Counted from the first letter of the stretch, positions 45,554 to 55,486 are shown. The stretch is 64,000 nt of DNA from Rhodocyclales bacterium (GCA_016235805.1 JACRIY010000124.1:1-64000), one strand, 5' to 3'. Translations and numbers: made by a program. Notes: generated from the sequence alone by a model not told the origin.

Positions 45554-45961
45554 CTACTTGTTGACCGCGTCCCCGGCTGGCGCCGCCGGTTCGGCAACAC
45601 CGGTTTTGCAGCCGGTCACCGGCGTGGTGGCGCCGTCATTGAGCGTCGCGTCATTTCCCGCGAGTTGCAGCACCATGGCGCCCTTGCCATAGCGTGAACC
45701 TTCCGTGCCGATGCGGTCGAGCCGCAACTCGCGCTCGGGAAGGATCAGCCAGACCGCGTCGCCGCCGTCCTGCTTGCGCAGATAGATGCGCTTGCCGCCT
45801 GCGCAAAGGTATTCGGTGGCATTGGCCGGGCTGCGCGAGCGTTCCGGTATGGCCGTGTCGCCACCGAAGGGCCAGACCTTGATTTTCATTTCGCCGCAGC
45901 CGGCGAGCAGCGCGGCGGCTGCGAGTGCCGCGAGACGTGCGGGATTGGATTGCAGGTGCAT
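45554..45961 (-). CDS. Hypothetical lipoprotein (MliC-like)
   Basis: Lipobox LAALAAAALLAGC; YLCAGGKRIYLRKQDGGDAVWLILPERELRLDRI. Confidence 0.6.
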   Translation of the reverse strand: MHLQSNPARLAALAAAALLAGCGEMKIKVWPFGGDTAIPERSRSPANATEYLCAGGKRIYLRKQDGGDAVWLILPERELRLDRIGTEGSRYGKGAMVLQLAGNDATLNDGATTPVTGCKTGVAEPAAPAGDAVNK

Positions 45962-46045
45962 GCGGGACTCCTTTTCAGGCCGGCATGGTGCCACAGATCG
46001 GCGCCGCGCCGGGCATGGGGCGGCAAAGGTCGATCCGCCGCATCG

Positions 46046-47857
46046 TCAGAGATCTAGCGCGGCGGCGATTTCCCGCCGCGTCTCTTCGATCGCGCGTTCC
46101 AGGCTGCGCAGTTCCGGAACGCCACCGAGCTCGCTTTTGAGTGCCGACTCGAGCGCGCCGGCCTTGAGATGGAGGTCGTCGAGCCCGAGTGTGCCGGCAC
46201 GTCCCTTGAAGGTGTGTGCCATTCGGGTCGCCAGTTCAATCTGCCCGGCCGCCATTGCGCGACGAATGTCCGGCGCCACCGAGGGGGTCTCCTCGACGAA
46301 TTTTGTCAGCCAGTAGCGATAGCGCTGCTCGTTGCCGAAAAAGCGGGTGAGCGCCGCCACGGTGTCCACACCGCGCATCGACGGCAACGAGGGCCGCGGG
46401 GACTCGGGCGCCATCTCGACTGGGGCGGGGATTCCCGGCGTCCTGCGTTCGGGCAGCCATTTGGCCAGCATCCGGTAAAAGTCGTTGGCATCGAAGGGCT
46501 TGCAGACGTGATCGCTCATTCCGGCATCGCTGCTGATGCGCTTCTCGTGGGCCAGGACATGCGCCGTCATGGCGACGATCGGCAACCGTTCGAAGCCGGG
46601 CCAGGTGCGTATCAGGCGCGTCGCGGACAGGCCGTCAAGGACGGGCATCTGGATGTCCATCAGCACAAGGTCGAATCGGTCCGGGCCGGATTCCCTGAGG
46701 ATATCGACGGCCTCCTGGCCGTTGCCTGCAGTACACGGCGTGATGCCGACGGCTTGCAGCAGTTCGATGGCGATTTCCATGTTCATCGCGTCGTCTTCGA
46801 CGACCAGCACGCCAGCCTGCGCGACATGAAGCGCGATCGCCGGGTCGGCCTCTTCCTCCGACCGTTCCGCCTCGTCGCCGAGGGCGAGCCGGATGGCAAG
46901 GCGGAAGGTGCTGCCAAGGCCTTCGCCGCTGTCGACCGTGATCCTGCCGTTCATCATCTCGGCGAAGCGCTGGCTGAGTGCGAGTCCAAGGCCGGTACCA
47001 CCGTATTTCCGCGTCATCGACACGTCGGTCTGGGCAAAGGGCTGGAACAGGCCGCCGATGTCGGCGGCGCGAATACCGACGCCGGTATCGGAGACGCTCA
47101 TGACCAGGCCTGCGGAATCCGTCGCCGGACCATCGACGCCGATACGGACGTCAACCCGGCCGGCCGGGGTGAATTTGATGGCATTGCCTATCAGATTGAG
47201 CAGGATCTGCTCAAGCCGCAGGGGATCGCCAAGCAGGCGGTCGGGGACCTCGTCGTCGATATGAAAATCCAGCAGCAGCCCCTTGGCTTCCGCCTTGTTG
47301 GCCATCACACCCTCGGCGTGTCGGATCATGTTGCGCAGGCTGAAGGGAATCGTCTCCACCTCCATGCGGCCGGCGACTATCTTCGACAGGTCGAGCAGAT
47401 CGTTGATGATGCGTGACAGGTGCTTGCCGGCCTTGCCGATCTTTTCCAGGTAGTCGCGCTGCGCCGGATTCTCGCAGCGACTCAGCGCGAGCGCCGACAG
47501 GCCGATGACGGCGCCGAGCGGTGTCCGCAGTTCGTGGCTGACATTGGCGACGAAGGCATCCTTGGCCTTGTCGGCTATCCGCGCCGCTTCCAGAGCGTCG
47601 CTCAGTTCGGCGGTGCGTTCCCGTACCAGTCGTTCGAGGTGTCCCCGTTGTTCCTCAAGGGCTTTTTCGGTGATCCTGAACCCGCCGCTGTCGTCCAACA
47701 CATTGCCGGGCATGGCGCGCTGTGCAAGGCGCGGTTTGATTCGCCGCAAGGAAGGGGAACTGCGGTATCCGGCCAGTTCGGGAATCCGCAGCCTTCCCCC
47801 ACGTACCCGCCGCAGCGGGCCGCGCGCCTTTCGTGTTGAGGGATTACTTCGGGCCAT
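46046..47857 (-). CDS. Hybrid histidine kinase (HisKA-HATPase-REC-Hpt), no recognisable input domain
   Basis: VANVSHELRTPLGAVIG, SDTGVGI...GGTGLGLALSQRFAEMM, LVLMDIQMPVLDGLSATRLIR, MAHTFKGRAGTLG. Confidence 0.88.
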   Translation of the reverse strand: MARSNPSTRKARGPLRRVRGGRLRIPELAGYRSSPSLRRIKPRLAQRAMPGNVLDDSGGFRITEKALEEQRGHLERLVRERTAELSDALEAARIADKAKDAFVANVSHELRTPLGAVIGLSALALSRCENPAQRDYLEKIGKAGKHLSRIINDLLDLSKIVAGRMEVETIPFSLRNMIRHAEGVMANKAEAKGLLLDFHIDDEVPDRLLGDPLRLEQILLNLIGNAIKFTPAGRVDVRIGVDGPATDSAGLVMSVSDTGVGIRAADIGGLFQPFAQTDVSMTRKYGGTGLGLALSQRFAEMMNGRITVDSGEGLGSTFRLAIRLALGDEAERSEEEADPAIALHVAQAGVLVVEDDAMNMEIAIELLQAVGITPCTAGNGQEAVDILRESGPDRFDLVLMDIQMPVLDGLSATRLIRTWPGFERLPIVAMTAHVLAHEKRISSDAGMSDHVCKPFDANDFYRMLAKWLPERRTPGIPAPVEMAPESPRPSLPSMRGVDTVAALTRFFGNEQRYRYWLTKFVEETPSVAPDIRRAMAAGQIELATRMAHTFKGRAGTLGLDDLHLKAGALESALKSELGGVPELRSLERAIEETRREIAAALDL

Positions 47858-48045
47858 TGCAGTGTCCGGTCGTGTTGGCGGCGCGCTGTGCCGCTGTTCG
47901 CTTCGCTGTCGCGCGCCACATTGCCTGCCAACGGAAAACCAGAGCGTAATCAGGTGATGCTCACGTCGGCCAGCAAGCCCAAGCCTAGGGCAAAGCGGGA
48001 AAAATTCCTACTGACAGAAATGACAGGTTTTTCGCCAGAAACGCG

Positions 48046-48081
48046 ATTTTTTGATCGAAATCAGGCGGCTTTTCGCGAAAA
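48046..48081. promoter_or_regulatory. Palindrome cluster upstream of the cqsA/lqsA-like gene
   Basis: GATTT-TTTGATCG-AAATC at 48046-48063 and perfect 12-bp palindrome TTTTCGCGAAAA at 48070-48081. Confidence 0.35.
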
Positions 48082-48173
48082 CAGGGGCGTCGCCCCATGT
48101 CCACCTGTTTGGAACAGAATGAAACTTGCAGCCCCGATCGAATCGAAACCCTCGCCTGAAAGGACTCCTGATC

Positions 48174-49472
48174 ATGAAAACCAAAGTAACCAGCATTCGC
48201 CCAGTTTCACAATTTCGTGCCCCGGACCTCGCCGAATTCGCCGCCCTGCGGGTCGACAAATACTATCGCGAGAGAGTGCAGGACACCTGGGCTGGCGGAC
48301 ACATCATGCGGGGTCGCCAGCCTGGACCGGATGCGCTGCAATTATGCAGCAACGACTACCTGGCGCTCGCCAGGCATCCGCGCATCCTGCGCGCCATGGC
48401 CGACAGCATCCAGCGCGACGGCAATGGCCTGCTGATGTCCGGGATATTCGTGCATGGCTCCTGTCCGCACACCGATTTCGAGCAGCGCCTGGCCGAGTTC
48501 ATGCTTGCCGAGGCCGGCGTGCTCTGTCAGTCCGGTTACAGCGCCAATACCGGTCTGATCCAGGTCATCGCCGACGAAAGAACCCCGGTCTATGCGGACA
48601 TGATGGCGCACATGTCCCTTTGGGAAGGCATCAGGCTCGCCGGCGCCAAACCGGTCACCGTCTTCCACAACGAAATCGAGCACCTCGAGCGACAGATCCT
48701 GCGCCATGGTCCTGGCGTGGTGGTGGTCGATTCGGTGTACAGCACTACCGGCAGCATCGCCCCGCTACGCGAAATCGTGGAGATCTGCGAGGCGCAAGGC
48801 TGCATCCTGGTCGCCGACGAGTCCCATTCCCTGGGCACCCATGGTCCGAATGGCGAAGGCCTGGTGGTGGAACTCGGCCTGGCGGAACGCGTGCATTTCC
48901 GTACCGCCAGCCTGGCCAAGGCTTTTGCCGGGCGCGCCGGTTTCGTCACCTGCTCGCGACGCTTCGCCGACTACTTCAAGAGCGAATCGAATCCCGCAAT
49001 ATTCAGCTCGACGCTCCTGCCACACGACATTCGCGGCCTCGATGCCACGCTCACAGTGATTCGCCAGGAGGGATGGCGTCGCGACCGGCTGCGCGCCAAC
49101 GCCGCCTATCTGCGCAATGAGCTCGACGCACTCGGTTATAACCTCAACGACAGCGAATGCCAGATCGTGTCGCTGGAGTCGGGTAGCGAGCAGAACACCA
49201 TCGCCTTGCGCGACGCGCTCGAATCGCGCGGCATTTTCGGCGCGATCTTCTGCGCCCCGGCCACGCCCAAGAGTCGCGCATTGATGCGCTTTTCGGTTCA
49301 TGCCGCGCTGACGGACGACGAATTGAGGCGCATCGTCGCGGTTTGCCGCGACATTCGTGATGAACTTGATGTCGCATCATGGCCCTCGACGCGACGCAAA
49401 CAGCGCGGGAAGGCGGCCAGCGCCGGGGTGGTAAATGCGGGCCGTGCATTGCAGCAGGTCGCCGCGGCGTGA
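48174..49472 (+). CDS. CqsA/LqsA-like PLP-dependent alpha-hydroxyketone autoinducer synthase
   Basis: LQLCSNDYLALARHPRILRAM, GSCPHTDFEQRLAEFM, YADMMAHMSLWEGIRLAGAKPVTVFHNEIEHL, VADESHSLGTHGPNGEGL, RTASLAKAFAGRAG; kinase/regulator neighbours. Confidence 0.85.
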   Translation: MKTKVTSIRPVSQFRAPDLAEFAALRVDKYYRERVQDTWAGGHIMRGRQPGPDALQLCSNDYLALARHPRILRAMADSIQRDGNGLLMSGIFVHGSCPHTDFEQRLAEFMLAEAGVLCQSGYSANTGLIQVIADERTPVYADMMAHMSLWEGIRLAGAKPVTVFHNEIEHLERQILRHGPGVVVVDSVYSTTGSIAPLREIVEICEAQGCILVADESHSLGTHGPNGEGLVVELGLAERVHFRTASLAKAFAGRAGFVTCSRRFADYFKSESNPAIFSSTLLPHDIRGLDATLTVIRQEGWRRDRLRANAAYLRNELDALGYNLNDSECQIVSLESGSEQNTIALRDALESRGIFGAIFCAPATPKSRALMRFSVHAALTDDELRRIVAVCRDIRDELDVASWPSTRRKQRGKAASAGVVNAGRALQQVAAA

Positions 49473-49491
49473 CCGCGTCGCCGCCGGGGGC

Positions 49492-50523
49492 TCAGGTCGA
49501 AGGCGCCAGCCCCTGGCGCGCTTCACGGTCGAGGTGGTCCAGGTACTCGCTGTAGGGATAGACGTACTTGAGGTTGAAGGCGCCCGGATTCTTGACCAGC
49601 GAATAGAGATACCAGTCCTCGCCCTTGAATTCGATCGCCGGATGCAGGCAGGGCTGCCAGTCCTCGTAGATCGGCGAGTAGTTGCCGCCGGTCTTCCAGA
49701 AGTAGGGCAGCGAACTTCCGCTGCGCAGCTGACGCAGCAGTTCTTCGGGCGCCGCCTGGTCGCTGGCGATCTCGTAGTGCCCTTGGAGCATTTCCTCGGT
49801 CTGCACGATCAGCAGGTAAGCGGTGCCATGCATGTCCAGCATCAGGATGCCGTCCGGCGAGCAGGACAGGTAGTGCTCGACGATCCCCAGATTGCCGCGG
49901 ATCTCGGCGAAGCGCTGGGCGAAGCCCGGGTCGCGCAGGAAGGGATGCGAACCGACCGCCAGTGCATCGGAAAGCATGTGTTCGATCTGGTCGAAATGCT
50001 CCTGCTGCAATTCGGCGATGGCCGAATTCAGGAGGCCCATGACATCGTCGTTCTGCTTGCGGATGAAGCGGTCGATGACCTTCTCGTTGAAGGCACGCAC
50101 GGCGACCTGTTCGTCGGCCTTGCCGGTGAGCAGGATCTTCTTGATCGCCTTGTTGCGCAGGTTGCGGCAGAACTCCAGGCCGTCGATCTCGGGCATGTCG
50201 TAGTCGACCACGACCACCGAAACCTGCTCGAAGCGACGCTCGTTATGCACCTCGCGGTGAATCATGTCGAGACTGACGTCGATCACATGGCGCGTCTGGT
50301 TCTTGTCGCCGCGGTGCCGATAGAGCGAGAAGAAGCGTTCGGCCAAGGGTTGAGCGGCGCTCGCGCCGTTGAGCGCAACAAGCGCCGCGAAGGGCGAATG
50401 GAACAGACGGAACGCCAGCCGTGAATCGAGCTGCAGGCTGAGGTTGGCGAGGAATTGCGGGCTGTCGTCGATGAAGGCGACCGTGGTCGGGAAGTGGAAG
50501 GGCTGAATGGCGCGACTTTTCAT
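49492..50523 (-). CDS. LqsR-like response regulator
   Basis: REC domain FIDDSPQFLANL, VVVVDYDMPEIDGLEFCRNLRNK, KKILLTGKADE; overlaps the kinase gene by ATGA. Confidence 0.78.
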   Translation of the reverse strand: MKSRAIQPFHFPTTVAFIDDSPQFLANLSLQLDSRLAFRLFHSPFAALVALNGASAAQPLAERFFSLYRHRGDKNQTRHVIDVSLDMIHREVHNERRFEQVSVVVVDYDMPEIDGLEFCRNLRNKAIKKILLTGKADEQVAVRAFNEKVIDRFIRKQNDDVMGLLNSAIAELQQEHFDQIEHMLSDALAVGSHPFLRDPGFAQRFAEIRGNLGIVEHYLSCSPDGILMLDMHGTAYLLIVQTEEMLQGHYEIASDQAAPEELLRQLRSGSSLPYFWKTGGNYSPIYEDWQPCLHPAIEFKGEDWYLYSLVKNPGAFNLKYVYPYSEYLDHLDREARQGLAPST

Positions 50524-51833
50524 GATTGCGGAAAGCTCAGGACGAATTCGGTGAAATCGCCGGAAACGGAGGTGCACTCGATGGTACCGCCGAATGAGGT
50601 CATCACGTCGCGACAGAAGGCCAGGCCGATGCCGGCGCCGAGCACGCTGTCATTGCTGTCGGCGGAAGTGTAAAAGCGCTGGAAGATGTGGGGAAGCATC
50701 TCCGGCGGGATGCCGCCGCCGGTGTCTCGGACCATGAGGCGGTTCGCGGCTGGCGAGGTGAGGATACGAATCGAGACTTCGCCCTTGCTTGCCCTGGCGA
50801 TATGGCGCAGGGCGTTCTTGATCAGGTTGAAGAGTACGTGCACCATCAGCAACTCGGAGCCGCGAAACGAAAAATCCCCTTCCCCTTCACGGAACACCAC
50901 CGCCCTTTCCTCCTCGGAAAAGGGATAGCGCTGCAGCGCGACATCGACGCATGCCGCCATCGTGCAGGGCTGCAAGGTCTGCTCTGCGGCGCCGGTGACC
51001 CTGGCGTTGACCAGCAGCATGTCGATGATGGCGTTCGAGTGGCGCGCTTCCGAATCGATGCGGCTGAGCACACCTCTCAGCGAATCGACGTGGGTCGCGC
51101 GAATCGGGCTCACCGGCAGCCCGCTTCGTTGCGCCATTTCGTGGGCCTCGATCAGCGCCGGCAGGTAGTGGGCCAGGCCTGCGGCGCCGGCACGGATGCT
51201 CAGCAGAGGTGTACGCAGTTCGTGGGCGATGCTGCCCGCCGTCGCCAGCATCGCGCGTTCCTGTTCGATGCGGATGCGCTCGCTGTCGTAGTTGGAGACG
51301 GCGCCGGCTGCCACCGCGAACAGCGCGATCGCCAGGTAGTCCCAGCGCTCGAAGGCGGCCAGCGGGACGTCGCTGGTCAGCGTGAAGGCGAGCACCGCCA
51401 GGCCGCTGCCCAGCACGAACTGCCCGATCAGCGTGACCCAGTCGAGCAGTAGGATCATGACGAAGACGGCCACCAGTGCTGAACCGATCCAGACGTCGGC
51501 GCCCTGGTTTTTCAGCAACATGTAGGTGAAGAAGAAGGGGAGCGAATACAGCAGAGAGAAGTACCAGTAGTAGGGCAGCCAGGATTTCAGCCAGTTGGGC
51601 CAGTGCCGGCTGAACAGCATGGGCACGAACAATGCTGTTCCGATCAGGCGCAAGCCCAGGCTTTCGTAGCGCTGGGGAAAGACGAAGGCCCAGACGTACC
51701 AGTAAAGGGGGAAGGCGACGATCGCGATAATGGCGAAGGCTGTCAGCCGTCGCTGGATATAGACCACGTTGCGCAGCGCCGGCTCCAGCAGTCGCGTGAT
51801 CAGGTGCTTCAGGAAAGGTATGAGGGCAGTCAT
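50520..51833 (-). CDS. LqsS/CqsS-like membrane sensor histidine kinase
   Basis: N-terminal multi-TM region, then TAGSIAHELRTPLLSIRAGAAGLAHYLPALIEAHEMA, HATPase GAGIGLAFCRDVMTSFGG; ends without REC. Confidence 0.82.
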   Translation of the reverse strand: MTALIPFLKHLITRLLEPALRNVVYIQRRLTAFAIIAIVAFPLYWYVWAFVFPQRYESLGLRLIGTALFVPMLFSRHWPNWLKSWLPYYWYFSLLYSLPFFFTYMLLKNQGADVWIGSALVAVFVMILLLDWVTLIGQFVLGSGLAVLAFTLTSDVPLAAFERWDYLAIALFAVAAGAVSNYDSERIRIEQERAMLATAGSIAHELRTPLLSIRAGAAGLAHYLPALIEAHEMAQRSGLPVSPIRATHVDSLRGVLSRIDSEARHSNAIIDMLLVNARVTGAAEQTLQPCTMAACVDVALQRYPFSEEERAVVFREGEGDFSFRGSELLMVHVLFNLIKNALRHIARASKGEVSIRILTSPAANRLMVRDTGGGIPPEMLPHIFQRFYTSADSNDSVLGAGIGLAFCRDVMTSFGGTIECTSVSGDFTEFVLSFPQS

Positions 51834-52168
51834 CGAATGGGGGGCTCGGCGCGATCATCACCGGGGGCAGGTGGAAAGCGGACGCCGCCGCGCCGGAGTG
51901 CCGGCAGGATAGGCATACAGTCTGGATCTGGAAGGCATACTCATGCAATTGAAGAAAAATCCCAAAATGTCATACAAGTGCCGCCGACGCAAGCGCTCCG
52001 TGGCAGGCTCCGAGGAATTCCGGTGTGCGCGCGGCTCCAGACGCCGGCTGACGGGCCGGCTTCGTTGCGGAAGCTCTATTTTCCGCGGATGTTCGGACTT
52101 GACAAGGGAATGTTGCACGGCTACAAAGCGCATTCTGCTTGCCTTGTCGCGTCTCGTCGATCCCCATC

Positions 52169-52903
52169 ATGAGTGAACCCGTGTCCGACCGTCCGCACCG
52201 GGAATCCGGCCTCTTGCTGTATTCCGGAAGCGCACGGCAGGATTTTTTTGCCGGCGTGGTGCTCGGTGCGCGCAATCTGGGCTTCGACTATTGCGGGTAT
52301 CTGATCGGAATCCCGGTGTCGGCCAGCGAGTGGCGTTTCGTGATGACCAACAATTTTCCGCGGGCCTGGCAGCGGCGCTACCTCAGGCGCGGCTACCACG
52401 CCATAGATCCCACGGTCGAGTATGCCAAGACCGGCGTCGAGCCGATGACCTGGTCGCGAGAGTTGTTTGCCGCCGAGGCCTTGCAGGACCTGTCGCGGGA
52501 TGCCGGCGCGATCGGCTTCAACCACGGCTGGACCCAGCCGCTGCACGATGCCCGCGGCCGATTCGGGATGCTGACACTGGCGCGCGGCGATGCGGCGATC
52601 GGCGCCGCCGAGCTGCAGGTCAAGCTGCCCATGATGCAGTGGCTGGCGCAGGTGGTGCATGACCGACTGTTCGCCGAGTTCATGGCATGGCAGCGCAACG
52701 AATCCATCGTTCGCCTGACCGAGCGGGAACTGGCCTGCCTGCGGCTTGCCGCGGATGGTGGCACCGCCGGCGAAATATCGGCGGCGACCGGCGTCGCCGA
52801 GCGCACGGTGAACTTCCACATGGCCAATGCCATCGACAAGCTCGGTGCGACCAACAAGACGCATGCCATTGCGCTGGCGCTGCGACTGGGACTGATTAGC
52901 TAG
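52169..52903 (+). CDS. LuxR family regulator with autoinducer-binding domain (LuxR solo in this window)
   Basis: AWQRRYLRRGYHAIDPTVEYAKTGVEPMTWS retains the W/Y/D-P/W positions of AHL-binding LuxRs; C-terminal LTERELACLRLAADGGTAGEISAATGVAERTVNFHMANAIDKLGATNK. Confidence 0.87.
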   Translation: MSEPVSDRPHRESGLLLYSGSARQDFFAGVVLGARNLGFDYCGYLIGIPVSASEWRFVMTNNFPRAWQRRYLRRGYHAIDPTVEYAKTGVEPMTWSRELFAAEALQDLSRDAGAIGFNHGWTQPLHDARGRFGMLTLARGDAAIGAAELQVKLPMMQWLAQVVHDRLFAEFMAWQRNESIVRLTERELACLRLAADGGTAGEISAATGVAERTVNFHMANAIDKLGATNKTHAIALALRLGLIS

Positions 52904-52939: not shown

Positions 52940-54134
52940 TCAAGCCGCGCTTCGGCGCGCAACGAGTTCATGCAGCAGTTCGAGTTGGCGCGGCAGGCAG
53001 CGGCTCTCCAGGTCGTAGCCATCCACCACGGTCTGGCGAGCGGCGGCTCGAATCGGCGCCAGCCGGTGGCGCTGGTCGATCGCCTGCGCCAGGGTTTCGG
53101 CGAGCATCCGGTGATCGAGGAAATCCACCAGGCGGCCGTTTTCGCCGTCCCGGATGACCTCCTGTACCGGCGCGGTGCGGGAGGCGACCACCACGCAGCC
53201 GGCTGCCATGGCTTCCAGCAGCGACCAGGAAAGCACGAATGGGTAGGTCAGGTAGGCATGCACGGTCGATACCTGCAGCAGGCGCAAGTAGTCGGCGTAG
53301 GGAACCCGCCCCAGGAAATGCACGCTGCCGGCGTCCAGCTGCGCGCCAACTTCCGCGATCATGGCCTGGCGCCAGGTCCCGCCGCTTGCCGGCCTGGCGC
53401 CATAGCTCACTTCGTCGCCGCCGACGATCAATATCCGCGCTCGCGGACGCAGCCGCAGCAGCAGGGGCAGGGCGCGCATGAAGGTGTGAAAGCCGCGATA
53501 CGGCTCCAGGTTGCGGGCGACGTAGGTCACGACCTCGTCGTCCGGACCGAGGGCGATGCCGGCCTTCTGCAGTGAAATCCGGGCGGCCGGATCGGGCGCG
53601 ACGCGGCGGGTGTCGATGCCCTCGTGCACGATGCGTATCCGATCCTGGACGATGGCGGGAAAGCGGCTTTGCTGCCAGCGCGTCGGCGCCAGCAGAAGGT
53701 CGGCGCTCTACATGCTCATCCACTGCGTCGTATTCTTGATCCGAAGCCGCAGCGCATCGTCGGCGGTTGCGGGGAATTCCGGATCGAAGCCGACGTCGCC
53801 GCCGGTGGCGTGGTAGTAGTACTCCGCATGCAGGGCGATCGGCACGTCGGCGAAGACGTCGCGCACGAATAGGGCCTCGCCCCAGCCCGGATGCGCCACG
53901 ACGAGATCGGGGCGGAAGCCGCCGGCCTTGATCTGGCGCAGGACGCCCACCACCTGCTGCCCGCGCCGGATGGCGGCTTCATAGCCCTGCAGGTAGCGAT
54001 GGCCGGTGGTCGCGATTGCGGGTGGCGGCGCATACGGCAGCAACTCGATGCCGCGCAGCGAGGCGCCGCCGGGCGGGGGACGACTGTGGCGGTTCGCGGG
54101 TGGGCATGCGTGGCCTTCGCGGGCTATGTCGCCG
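52940..54134 (-). pseudogene. Glycosyltransferase (PF12000-type), 5'-truncated and interrupted by in-frame TAG
   Basis: Frame reads PGDIAREGHACPPANRHSRPPPGGASLRGIELLPYAPPP...HPGWGEALFVRDVFADVPIALHAEYYYHATGGDVGFDPEF...NTTQWMSM*SADLLLAPTRWQQSRFPAIVQDRIRIVHEGIDTRRV...; no start codon at the expected N-terminus. Confidence 0.85.
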
Positions 54135-54136
54135 GG

Positions 54137-55348
54137 CTAGAGCGCGTGCACCCGATCGCCGCGGGCGAAGCCGACCAGCGGGCCGGGGACGCCACGACCC
54201 AGCGCGATCACCTTGAACAGTTCGCCCATTTCGTTGGGCGAGATCAGCACATTCACCGCGCCGCGTGCGCGCAGGTCGACTGCGGACGCCGTATCGCCAG
54301 CGACCGCAGCAAGTCCCTGTGGGGCGCCGACTTTCTCTTCCTGCAGCAAGTCGCCGATGCCGCAATTGAGCAGGAAGTTGGACTGGCTGGCATAACCGAG
54401 CACCTCGAGGCCTGCATCGAAGCCGGCCTCGGCAACGGCCGTGAAGTCGACGTGCGAGGTGATGTCCGACAGGCCGGGAAACCAGAACGGATCATCGTGC
54501 ACGCGATGCCGGTAATGGCAGCGCAGGGTGCCGCCGTCGCGCTGCGGATGGTACAGCTCGTGGCGCGGCAGGCCGTAATCGATCAGGATCATGGCGCCCC
54601 GCTCCAGCCGGCGCGACAGGTCGCTGACCCAGCTGCGCACGGCGAGGCTGATCTCGCCGCGATAGGGTGTCTCTTGCGGCAGCGCGCGCGCCGCTTCCAG
54701 GAGAGCGCCGCGGGCCGGGCGTTCGGCGGCGACCAGCCGGCCGTCGACCACGCCGACGCCGCCCTCCATGATGTCGCCCTCGCCGCCGCTCCAGTGCACG
54801 ACGTGGGTCGGCATGGCGTCGAGCACTTCGTTGCCGACCAGGCAGCCGGAAAAGCGTTCGGGCAAGGCGTCGAGCCATTCGACGCGATCGGCATAGTGCG
54901 GCGCCTGTTCGGCCAGCATCGCTTGCTGGCGCGCCCGCAGTTCGCCGGAGAGTTCGAGGATCCGGTAGCGCTCGGGCAGGCAGCCGAGGGCGTCGAGCCC
55001 GCTTAGCAGGTCGACCGCCAGGCGGCCGCTGCCGGCGCCGGCTTCGATCACCTGCGGGGTCGACGCGGCGATGACTTGCGCCACCTGGCGCGCCAGGGCG
55101 CGACCGAACAGCGGGGTCAGCTCCGGTGCGGTGAGGAAGTCGCCGCCGGCCTGGTGGTCGCCGAACTTGTGCGAGCCGCCGGCGTAATAGCCGAGGCCGG
55201 GCTGGTACAGGGCCAGTTCCATGTAGCGGGCGAACGGGATCCAGCCGCCGCGCGCGGCGATCTCGGCGGCGATGACGGCGCCCAGCGCCGCGCTGGCGGC
55301 GCGCGCATCGTCGCCGGGCGGCGGCAGGTCGGCGGCGACCAGCGTCAT
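54137..55348 (-). CDS. SAM-dependent methyltransferase, COG1565/NDUFAF7-like
   Basis: FARYMELALYQPGLGYYAGG, FLTAPELTPLFGRALARQVAQV, VIEAGAGSGRLAVDLL, IDYGLPRHELYHPQRDGGTLRCHYRHRVHDDPF. Confidence 0.9.
   Translation of the reverse strand: MTLVAADLPPPGDDARAASAALGAVIAAEIAARGGWIPFARYMELALYQPGLGYYAGGSHKFGDHQAGGDFLTAPELTPLFGRALARQVAQVIAASTPQVIEAGAGSGRLAVDLLSGLDALGCLPERYRILELSGELRARQQAMLAEQAPHYADRVEWLDALPERFSGCLVGNEVLDAMPTHVVHWSGGEGDIMEGGVGVVDGRLVAAERPARGALLEAARALPQETPYRGEISLAVRSWVSDLSRRLERGAMILIDYGLPRHELYHPQRDGGTLRCHYRHRVHDDPFWFPGLSDITSHVDFTAVAEAGFDAGLEVLGYASQSNFLLNCGIGDLLQEEKVGAPQGLAAVAGDTASAVDLRARGAVNVLISPNEMGELFKVIALGRGVPGPLVGFARGDRVHAL
54288..54335 (-). repeat. Possible extended variant of the 21-nt core inside the COG1565 methyltransferase
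   Basis: Minus strand GAAAGTCGGC-GCCCCACAGGGACTTGCTGCGGTC-GCTGGCGATACGGC: core halves separated by 24 nt. Confidence 0.5.
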
Positions 55349-55355
55349 TTGACGA

Positions 55356-55486
55356 CCATCCCCCCAACCCCGGCCCCACTGCCGGCTCTGCATAGCCGGC
55401 CGGCTGCGGCAGCGCGGAGCAGTGCTCCGCGAAACCCTGCCTTCGCCCCAAGGCAGGGGGTGACGGTGGTTCGCCGCTGCGCGACT
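55356..55486 (-). repeat. ~130-nt double-hairpin repeat, copy 2, intergenic
   Basis: Reverse complement matches 34357-34488; hairpins 55381-55400 and 55413-55431. Confidence 0.85.

Follow-up and report, generated by a model that had tools for sequence, protein, structure and literature searches.

Hydroxyketone signalling and acyl-homoserine lactone (AHL) signalling are usually studied as separate systems, and the locus analyzed here raises the question of whether a receptor typical of the latter belongs to a circuit of the former or is merely its chance neighbour. The locus lies in the window, by which is meant the whole stretch of 64,000 nucleotides analyzed from a Rhodocyclales bacterium. 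The host is a freshwater or sludge bacterium related to Sulfuritalea: its genome is Sulfuritalea-like, with a synthase 92% identical to that of the best named relative, Sulfuritalea sp. MAG UWPOB_SULF1. The draft, 80% complete, consists of 130 contigs totalling 3.83 Mb. Taken as a whole, the observations are quite probably best explained by an island of five signalling genes (hybrid kinase, lqsA, lqsR, lqsS and luxR) in which LuxR would activate the hybrid kinase and an export regulon beside the Lqs system. All five open reading frames are intact, and these together with the domain matches bear out the positions and strands given in an earlier sequence-only reading of this DNA. The features of the island and its borders are as follows.

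45554..45994, minus strand: left border gene, a small lipoprotein, outside the system; adjoins the methyltransferase gene in the inspected lqs-negative genomes
46046..47857, minus strand: hybrid histidine kinase, HisKA-HATPase-REC-Hpt by Pfam, which recognised no input domain; predicted LuxR target
47982..47987, minus strand: -10-like element TAGGCT, on the hybrid-kinase side of the lux box at a distance of 23 bp, with the same offset in 7/7 loci
48011..48026, no strand: predicted lux-box operator CTGACAGAAATGACAG, within an invariant 25-bp block
48174..49472, plus strand: lqsA/cqsA-type alpha-hydroxyketone synthase (NF005526, PDB matches, tree), with PLP lysine K249 and aspartate D215
49492..50523, minus strand: lqsR response regulator (PDB 6sy9), with phospho-acceptor D107
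50520..51833, minus strand: lqsS-type sensor kinase (Pfam and CqsS alignment), with CqsS-like membrane sensor and H204, without receiver domain
52099..52127, plus strand: sigma-70-like luxR promoter TTGACA-N17-TACAAA, conserved across loci
52169..52903, plus strand: luxR solo, Autoind_bind and GerE domains, WYDPWG residues intact (W67, Y71, D80, P81, W95, G120)
54137..55393, minus strand: right border gene, SAM-dependent methyltransferase family, outside the system

Within this block lqsA is convergent with lqsR, with 19 bp between the stop codons, and lqsS overlaps lqsR by 4 bp in an ATGA-type junction. Between luxR and the methyltransferase gene there is also a glycosyltransferase-like gene (52940-54043, minus strand), the window copy of which is split by an in-frame stop and represents either a real pseudogene or an assembly error. 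It is intact in the close relative G017 (L013). This gene follows luxR in the window and in G017, and is absent from the other five sites filled by the island.

The identity of the synthase bears on whether the locus concerns quorum sensing at all. The product of 48174-49472 scored 590.7 bits against the curated NF005526 model for alpha-hydroxyketone autoinducer synthases, the cut-off of which is 428, while the BioF, KBL and SPT models gave scores far under their own cut-offs. Its best PDB matches are the V. cholerae CqsA structures, and in the tree it is located with CqsA/LqsA proteins, including V. campbellii CqsA, apart from E. coli BioF and Kbl. Translation is assigned to the ATG at 48174, behind an AAGGA ribosome-binding site, and this start is conserved in aligned relatives. 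Judged by its sequence, the enzyme is a CqsA/LqsA-family synthase, as had been claimed from sequence alone; comparison with KBL and BioF, by both model scores and tree, leads to the same placement. BioF, KBL and SPT enzymes do belong to the same superfamily and their models return weaker matches, but an ordinary enzyme of one of these types, and hence a locus unrelated to quorum sensing, has next to no likelihood given the scores, the PDB matches, the grouping with V. campbellii CqsA and the tie to lqsR and lqsS, and this identity was rejected.

The two genes that converge on lqsA indicate which subtype of hydroxyketone system is present. The protein from 49492-50523 matches L. pneumophila LqsR (PDB 6sy9) over residues 5-334 with E 1e-75. 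According to Pfam, the adjoining kinase (50520-51833) possesses HisKA and HATPase domains and no REC domain. Its alignment with V. campbellii CqsS scored 501, against no more than 58 for shuffled sequences, and the sensor part alone scored 224 against the CqsS sensor (shuffles up to 70), so that both the six-helix CqsS-type sensor and the kinase are alignable. A separate LqsR-family regulator and a kinase without REC are characteristic of the Lqs subtype, and the fused receiver domain of a Vibrio-type Cqs kinase was not found by Pfam in 50520-51833; the earlier view that the kinase is closer to LqsS than to CqsS is therefore upheld. The hybrid kinase is present in the block at all seven congeneric loci. 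Distant paralogues of it are common elsewhere in these genomes, and consequently it may have a partner of its own.

Comparison of genomes demonstrates that these genes are inherited together. Among 31 congeneric genomes, lqsA was found in seven, always at one conserved site, and close homologues of the window's luxR were found in exactly the same seven; the chance of identical sets is 3.8e-7, a value that ignores kinship. At the seven filled sites the order is hybrid kinase, lqsA, lqsR, lqsS and luxR between the lipoprotein and methyltransferase genes; in G013 the contig ends first, and the block lies beside the methyltransferase gene in the same order. In 16/16 inspected lqs-negative genomes the two border genes are neighbours, i.e., the site is empty. 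In a tree built from the genes adjoining the island, the positive genomes require at least three changes and a single clade is rejected (AU p 1e-57); therefore, the block was moved or lost as a unit more than once. Moreover, in G037, a member of another genus, lqsA-lqsR-lqsS and a luxR 53% identical to that of the window stand side by side at a different chromosomal site, with no hybrid kinase beside them. In a family-wide search, LuxR matches of at least 50% identity occurred only in lqs-positive genomes. The identical sets of genomes and the empty sites led to rejection of LuxR as a chance neighbour. The luxR-lqs linkage is directly observed, and is presumably functional. The survey of gene neighbourhoods hence strengthens the proposal of the sequence-only reading that two inputs, the ligands of which are putative, are integrated at one locus, with strict co-occurrence, empty sites and a lux box all pointing that way.

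The lux box would provide the link between the LuxR protein and the remainder of the island. The intergenic region between the hybrid kinase and lqsA has diverged among the seven loci except for a 25-bp block, TTCCTACTGWCAGAAATGACAGGTT, the core of which is a CT-N12-AG palindrome, and the lux-box palindrome within it, CTGWCAGAAATGACAG, does not vary. When 32 genomes were searched for the 16-mer, 19 exact copies were returned, distributed over 8/8 luxR-positive genomes and 0/24 luxR-negative congeners. Allowing two mismatches, the operator was present in no lqs locus lacking a LuxR-type gene. The same palindrome class, CTGWCA-N4-TGWCAG, is located 63 bp before the luxI start codon in G067, G886 and G1060, and because it precedes genuine luxI genes there, the island palindrome is identified as a lux box. 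Furthermore, the window's LuxR has a recognition helix, ERTVNFHMANAI, that closely resembles those of luxI-linked LuxR proteins, ERTVNFHIANIL and DRTVNFHISNTL.

The direction in which the box would act can be read from its distance to -10-like elements. At 12 other lux-box sites, outside the island, in the luxR-positive genomes, a TAnnnT element lies 23 bp downstream of the box towards the target gene in 11 cases and at 24 bp in the twelfth. In the opposite direction, at offsets of 22-24, none of the 12 sites has one, the background being 1.3% per position. At the island, TAnnnT is found at +23 on the hybrid-kinase side in 7/7 loci and on the lqsA side in 0/7. The predicted target within the locus is therefore the hybrid-kinase gene, which the sequence-only reading had treated as a mere flank, a view that needs revision. 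Direct control of lqsA by LuxR is unsupported in this genus, and LuxR as an activator of lqsA was dropped on the same ground. A CT-N12-AG palindrome in place of the -35 region, at a fixed distance from the -10 region, is what defines a class II lux-box promoter, with binding of LuxR to it predicted. In sequence terms, the box with its fixed TAnnnT spacing is the geometry of an activator that replaces the -35 region.

The window's draft contains one exact operator copy, at the island, as does G018, whose only site is likewise that of the island. With a single exact operator and a draft 80% complete, the regulon was read from relatives. Type I ABC exporters are located behind the box in G008 (two), G017 and G037, several of them with a C39-like domain, and in G030 a type I exporter stands behind a J-domain-like gene downstream of the box. 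J-domain-like genes follow the box in both G030 and G017. In G017 a further box precedes a lipoprotein gene upstream of a Tle1-like gene, and autoregulation of luxR is suggested in G013, where a lux box overlaps the -35 of this gene. Homologous proteins of about 90 amino acids are encoded behind boxes in G008, G004 and G013. Members of this acidic family occur at L180 3148-3429, L186 2266-2538 and L188 3573-3908, and the one copy scanned against Pfam, that of L186, gave no match. They may be exported peptides or partners of such peptides, since other boxes precede C39-type ABC exporters.

LuxR itself combines Autoind_bind and GerE domains, as is typical of its family, and WYDPWG, the six AHL-contact residues, is present in all eight LuxR proteins (seven congeners and G037). 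Searching with the LuxI family model PF00765 gave no match in the window's draft and no credible score in the six related luxR-positive congeners, including the near-complete G017, G018 and G013 that carry the same luxR. Results from other genomes show that this search does detect real luxI genes, and a weak luxI-like match in G008 was discarded as a PF13444 acetyltransferase (127.9 bits versus 23.9). The sequence-only reading had noted that luxI is missing from the window, and the genome-wide search extends this to all seven luxR-positive congeners, in which no cognate luxI, and thus no complete LuxI/LuxR system, was found. With an intact binding motif and no luxI, LuxR probably responds to an acyl-homoserine lactone produced by neighbours, as far as sequence can indicate. 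Elsewhere, in G067 (L108 5657-6403), a diverged LuxR-type gene is located downstream of lqsR inside the lqs operon; its Autoind_bind match is weak (32 bits), WYDPWG is partly lost, and the genome also has a luxI/luxR pair.

Whether LuxR acts at the operator, and on which signal, can be explained in other ways. Another transcription factor might bind the operator, LuxR being a passenger of the island; the DNA sites of LuxR-family proteins resemble one another, and binding of LuxR to this operator is a prediction. This is very improbable, however, as LuxR is the sole protein of the co-inherited block with a DNA-binding domain recognised by Pfam, the exact sites are confined to luxR-positive genomes, G037 has luxR and the same operators with no adjacent hybrid kinase, and the palindrome is the luxI-promoter box in relatives whose LuxR shares the recognition helix. 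As to the signal, a source of AHL in the same cell is conceivable, either a luxI missed by the assembly, the draft being only 80% complete, or a synthase outside the LuxI family, PF00765 being the family covered. Against this stand the negative results in the three near-complete relatives, the assignment of the G008 match to an acetyltransferase and the detection of luxI in other genomes, making such a source unlikely.

A further possibility concerns the hydroxyketone, or another product of LqsA, as the ligand of LuxR in place of AHL. LqsA would then stand in for LuxI, and a membrane receptor (LqsS) and an unrelated cytoplasmic one (LuxR) would read the same signal. The perfect pairing of luxR with lqsA keeps such a role within consideration: in the genus LuxR never occurs without lqsA, there is no luxI, and LuxR-type receptors for ligands other than AHL exist (PMC4414361). 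In two genomes of another family, G207 and G744, the position beside lqsS is likewise occupied by a LuxR-like protein, one with a degenerate ligand domain (no detectable Autoind_bind), and 65-66 bp before lqsA there is a perfect palindrome, CCCTGTCA-N4-TGACAGGG (L109 8758-8773 in G207; L110 8365-8380 in G744). This arrangement, a separate coupling of LuxR-type control to lqsA with the palindrome at luxI-box distance, is an independent case towards LuxR reading the LqsA product. In the window's genus, however, no -10-like element joins the box to lqsA, and all eight proteins retain the WYDPWG residues typical of AHL sensors, most of which are lost in the non-AHL receptors PluR and PauR (PMC4414361). 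A hydroxyketone ligand is accordingly regarded as doubtful.

In the preferred reading, that of LuxR as activator of the hybrid kinase and of export genes, the gene identities, the inheritance as a block, the operator with its link to luxR and the promoter geometry are read directly from the DNA, and the working of the circuit is conditional. LqsA would make an alpha-hydroxyketone, as its family suggests, and LqsS would sense it in the membrane and phosphorylate LqsR, in line with the proposals for Legionella and Janthinobacterium. The LuxR solo, putatively on binding AHL, would occupy the lux box CTGWCA-N4-TGWCAG and, as a class II activator with the box centred near -43 in place of the -35 region, switch on the divergent hybrid-kinase gene. 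Elsewhere in the genomes it would activate genes for type I exporters, J-domain proteins and small proteins. The hybrid kinase might feed the Lqs phosphorelay, with LqsR as the obvious candidate substrate on the basis of linkage. In this manner the second input would determine how much of a phosphorelay kinase is present alongside the hydroxyketone system, and would also switch on an export programme.

The lqs part of the island is not new, since betaproteobacterial lqs clusters with lqsR are already described (PMC3566124, PMC10653808, PMC3376566). Clusters of lqsA-lqsR-lqsS occur in Janthinobacterium, where JqsA was shown to act (PMC3566124, PMC5080296), and lqs clusters extend across Alpha-, Beta- and Gammaproteobacteria (PMC10653808, PMC3376566). 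In our survey, the convergent arrangement of lqsA and lqsS-lqsR recurred in Paraburkholderia, Trinickia and other relatives, and none of these surveyed loci had a linked luxR like that of the window. Upstream of lqsA in Trinickia terrae (L018 4504-7702) there are, besides the usual convergent lqsR-lqsS pair, another kinase and another LqsR-like regulator. In two lqs-positive genomes belonging to the same family as the window, G1060 (L192 2658) and G886 (L193 2846), the lqs locus has no luxR, and a full luxI/luxR pair is found at another place on the chromosome.

Compared with Legionella Lqs (LqsA-LqsR-LqsS/T), the window shares the three protein families, the near-full-length LqsR match and a kinase without receiver domain, but differs in that no hdeD gene lies inside, lqsA converges on the lqsS-lqsR operon, luxR and the hybrid kinase are co-inherited, and a lux-box promoter is located in the locus. 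JqsA-JqsS-JqsR of Janthinobacterium (PMC3566124, PMC5080296) and the clusters of the PhcX/LqsR survey (PMC10653808) are likewise betaproteobacterial with lqsR, and strain HH01 is also without AHL synthases; unlike the window's island, no linked LuxR or lux box is described for them in the available portions of these papers. The JAI motif proposed for Janthinobacterium (TTGA-N6/7-TCAA) was not found in the window's two intergenic regions. Vibrio CqsA/CqsS has the same synthase family and six-helix sensor domain, but CqsS carries a receiver domain, in place of which the window has a separate LqsR. The solos SdiA and QscR (PMC10134790) resemble the window's LuxR in domain architecture, the WYDPWG motif and the lack of a cognate luxI, whereas the latter is genetically locked to a hydroxyketone system and has a predicted regulon including the island's kinase and type I exporters. 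In the open-access literature searched, no paper was found that links lux boxes or LuxR solos to lqs/cqs, nor could we find there a description of an island in which Lqs is locked to a hybrid kinase, a LuxR solo and a lux-box promoter.

Evolution has kept an Lqs system, a hybrid kinase and a LuxR receptor in a single block whose operator and promoter geometry can be read. Two questions are thereby made testable, namely what LuxR solos respond to and how hydroxyketone circuits reach transcription. Regarding the latter, no DNA-binding domain is recognised in LqsR, which makes a transcription factor that is inherited with it, and whose regulon is mapped, a concrete lead. Type I exporters and small proteins, as the predicted output, point to control of secretion by the island. 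Were LuxR to read the LqsA product, a LuxR/lux-box regulon would draw its signal from LqsA in place of LuxI. The wiring of this island appears to connect two kinds of bacterial "language".
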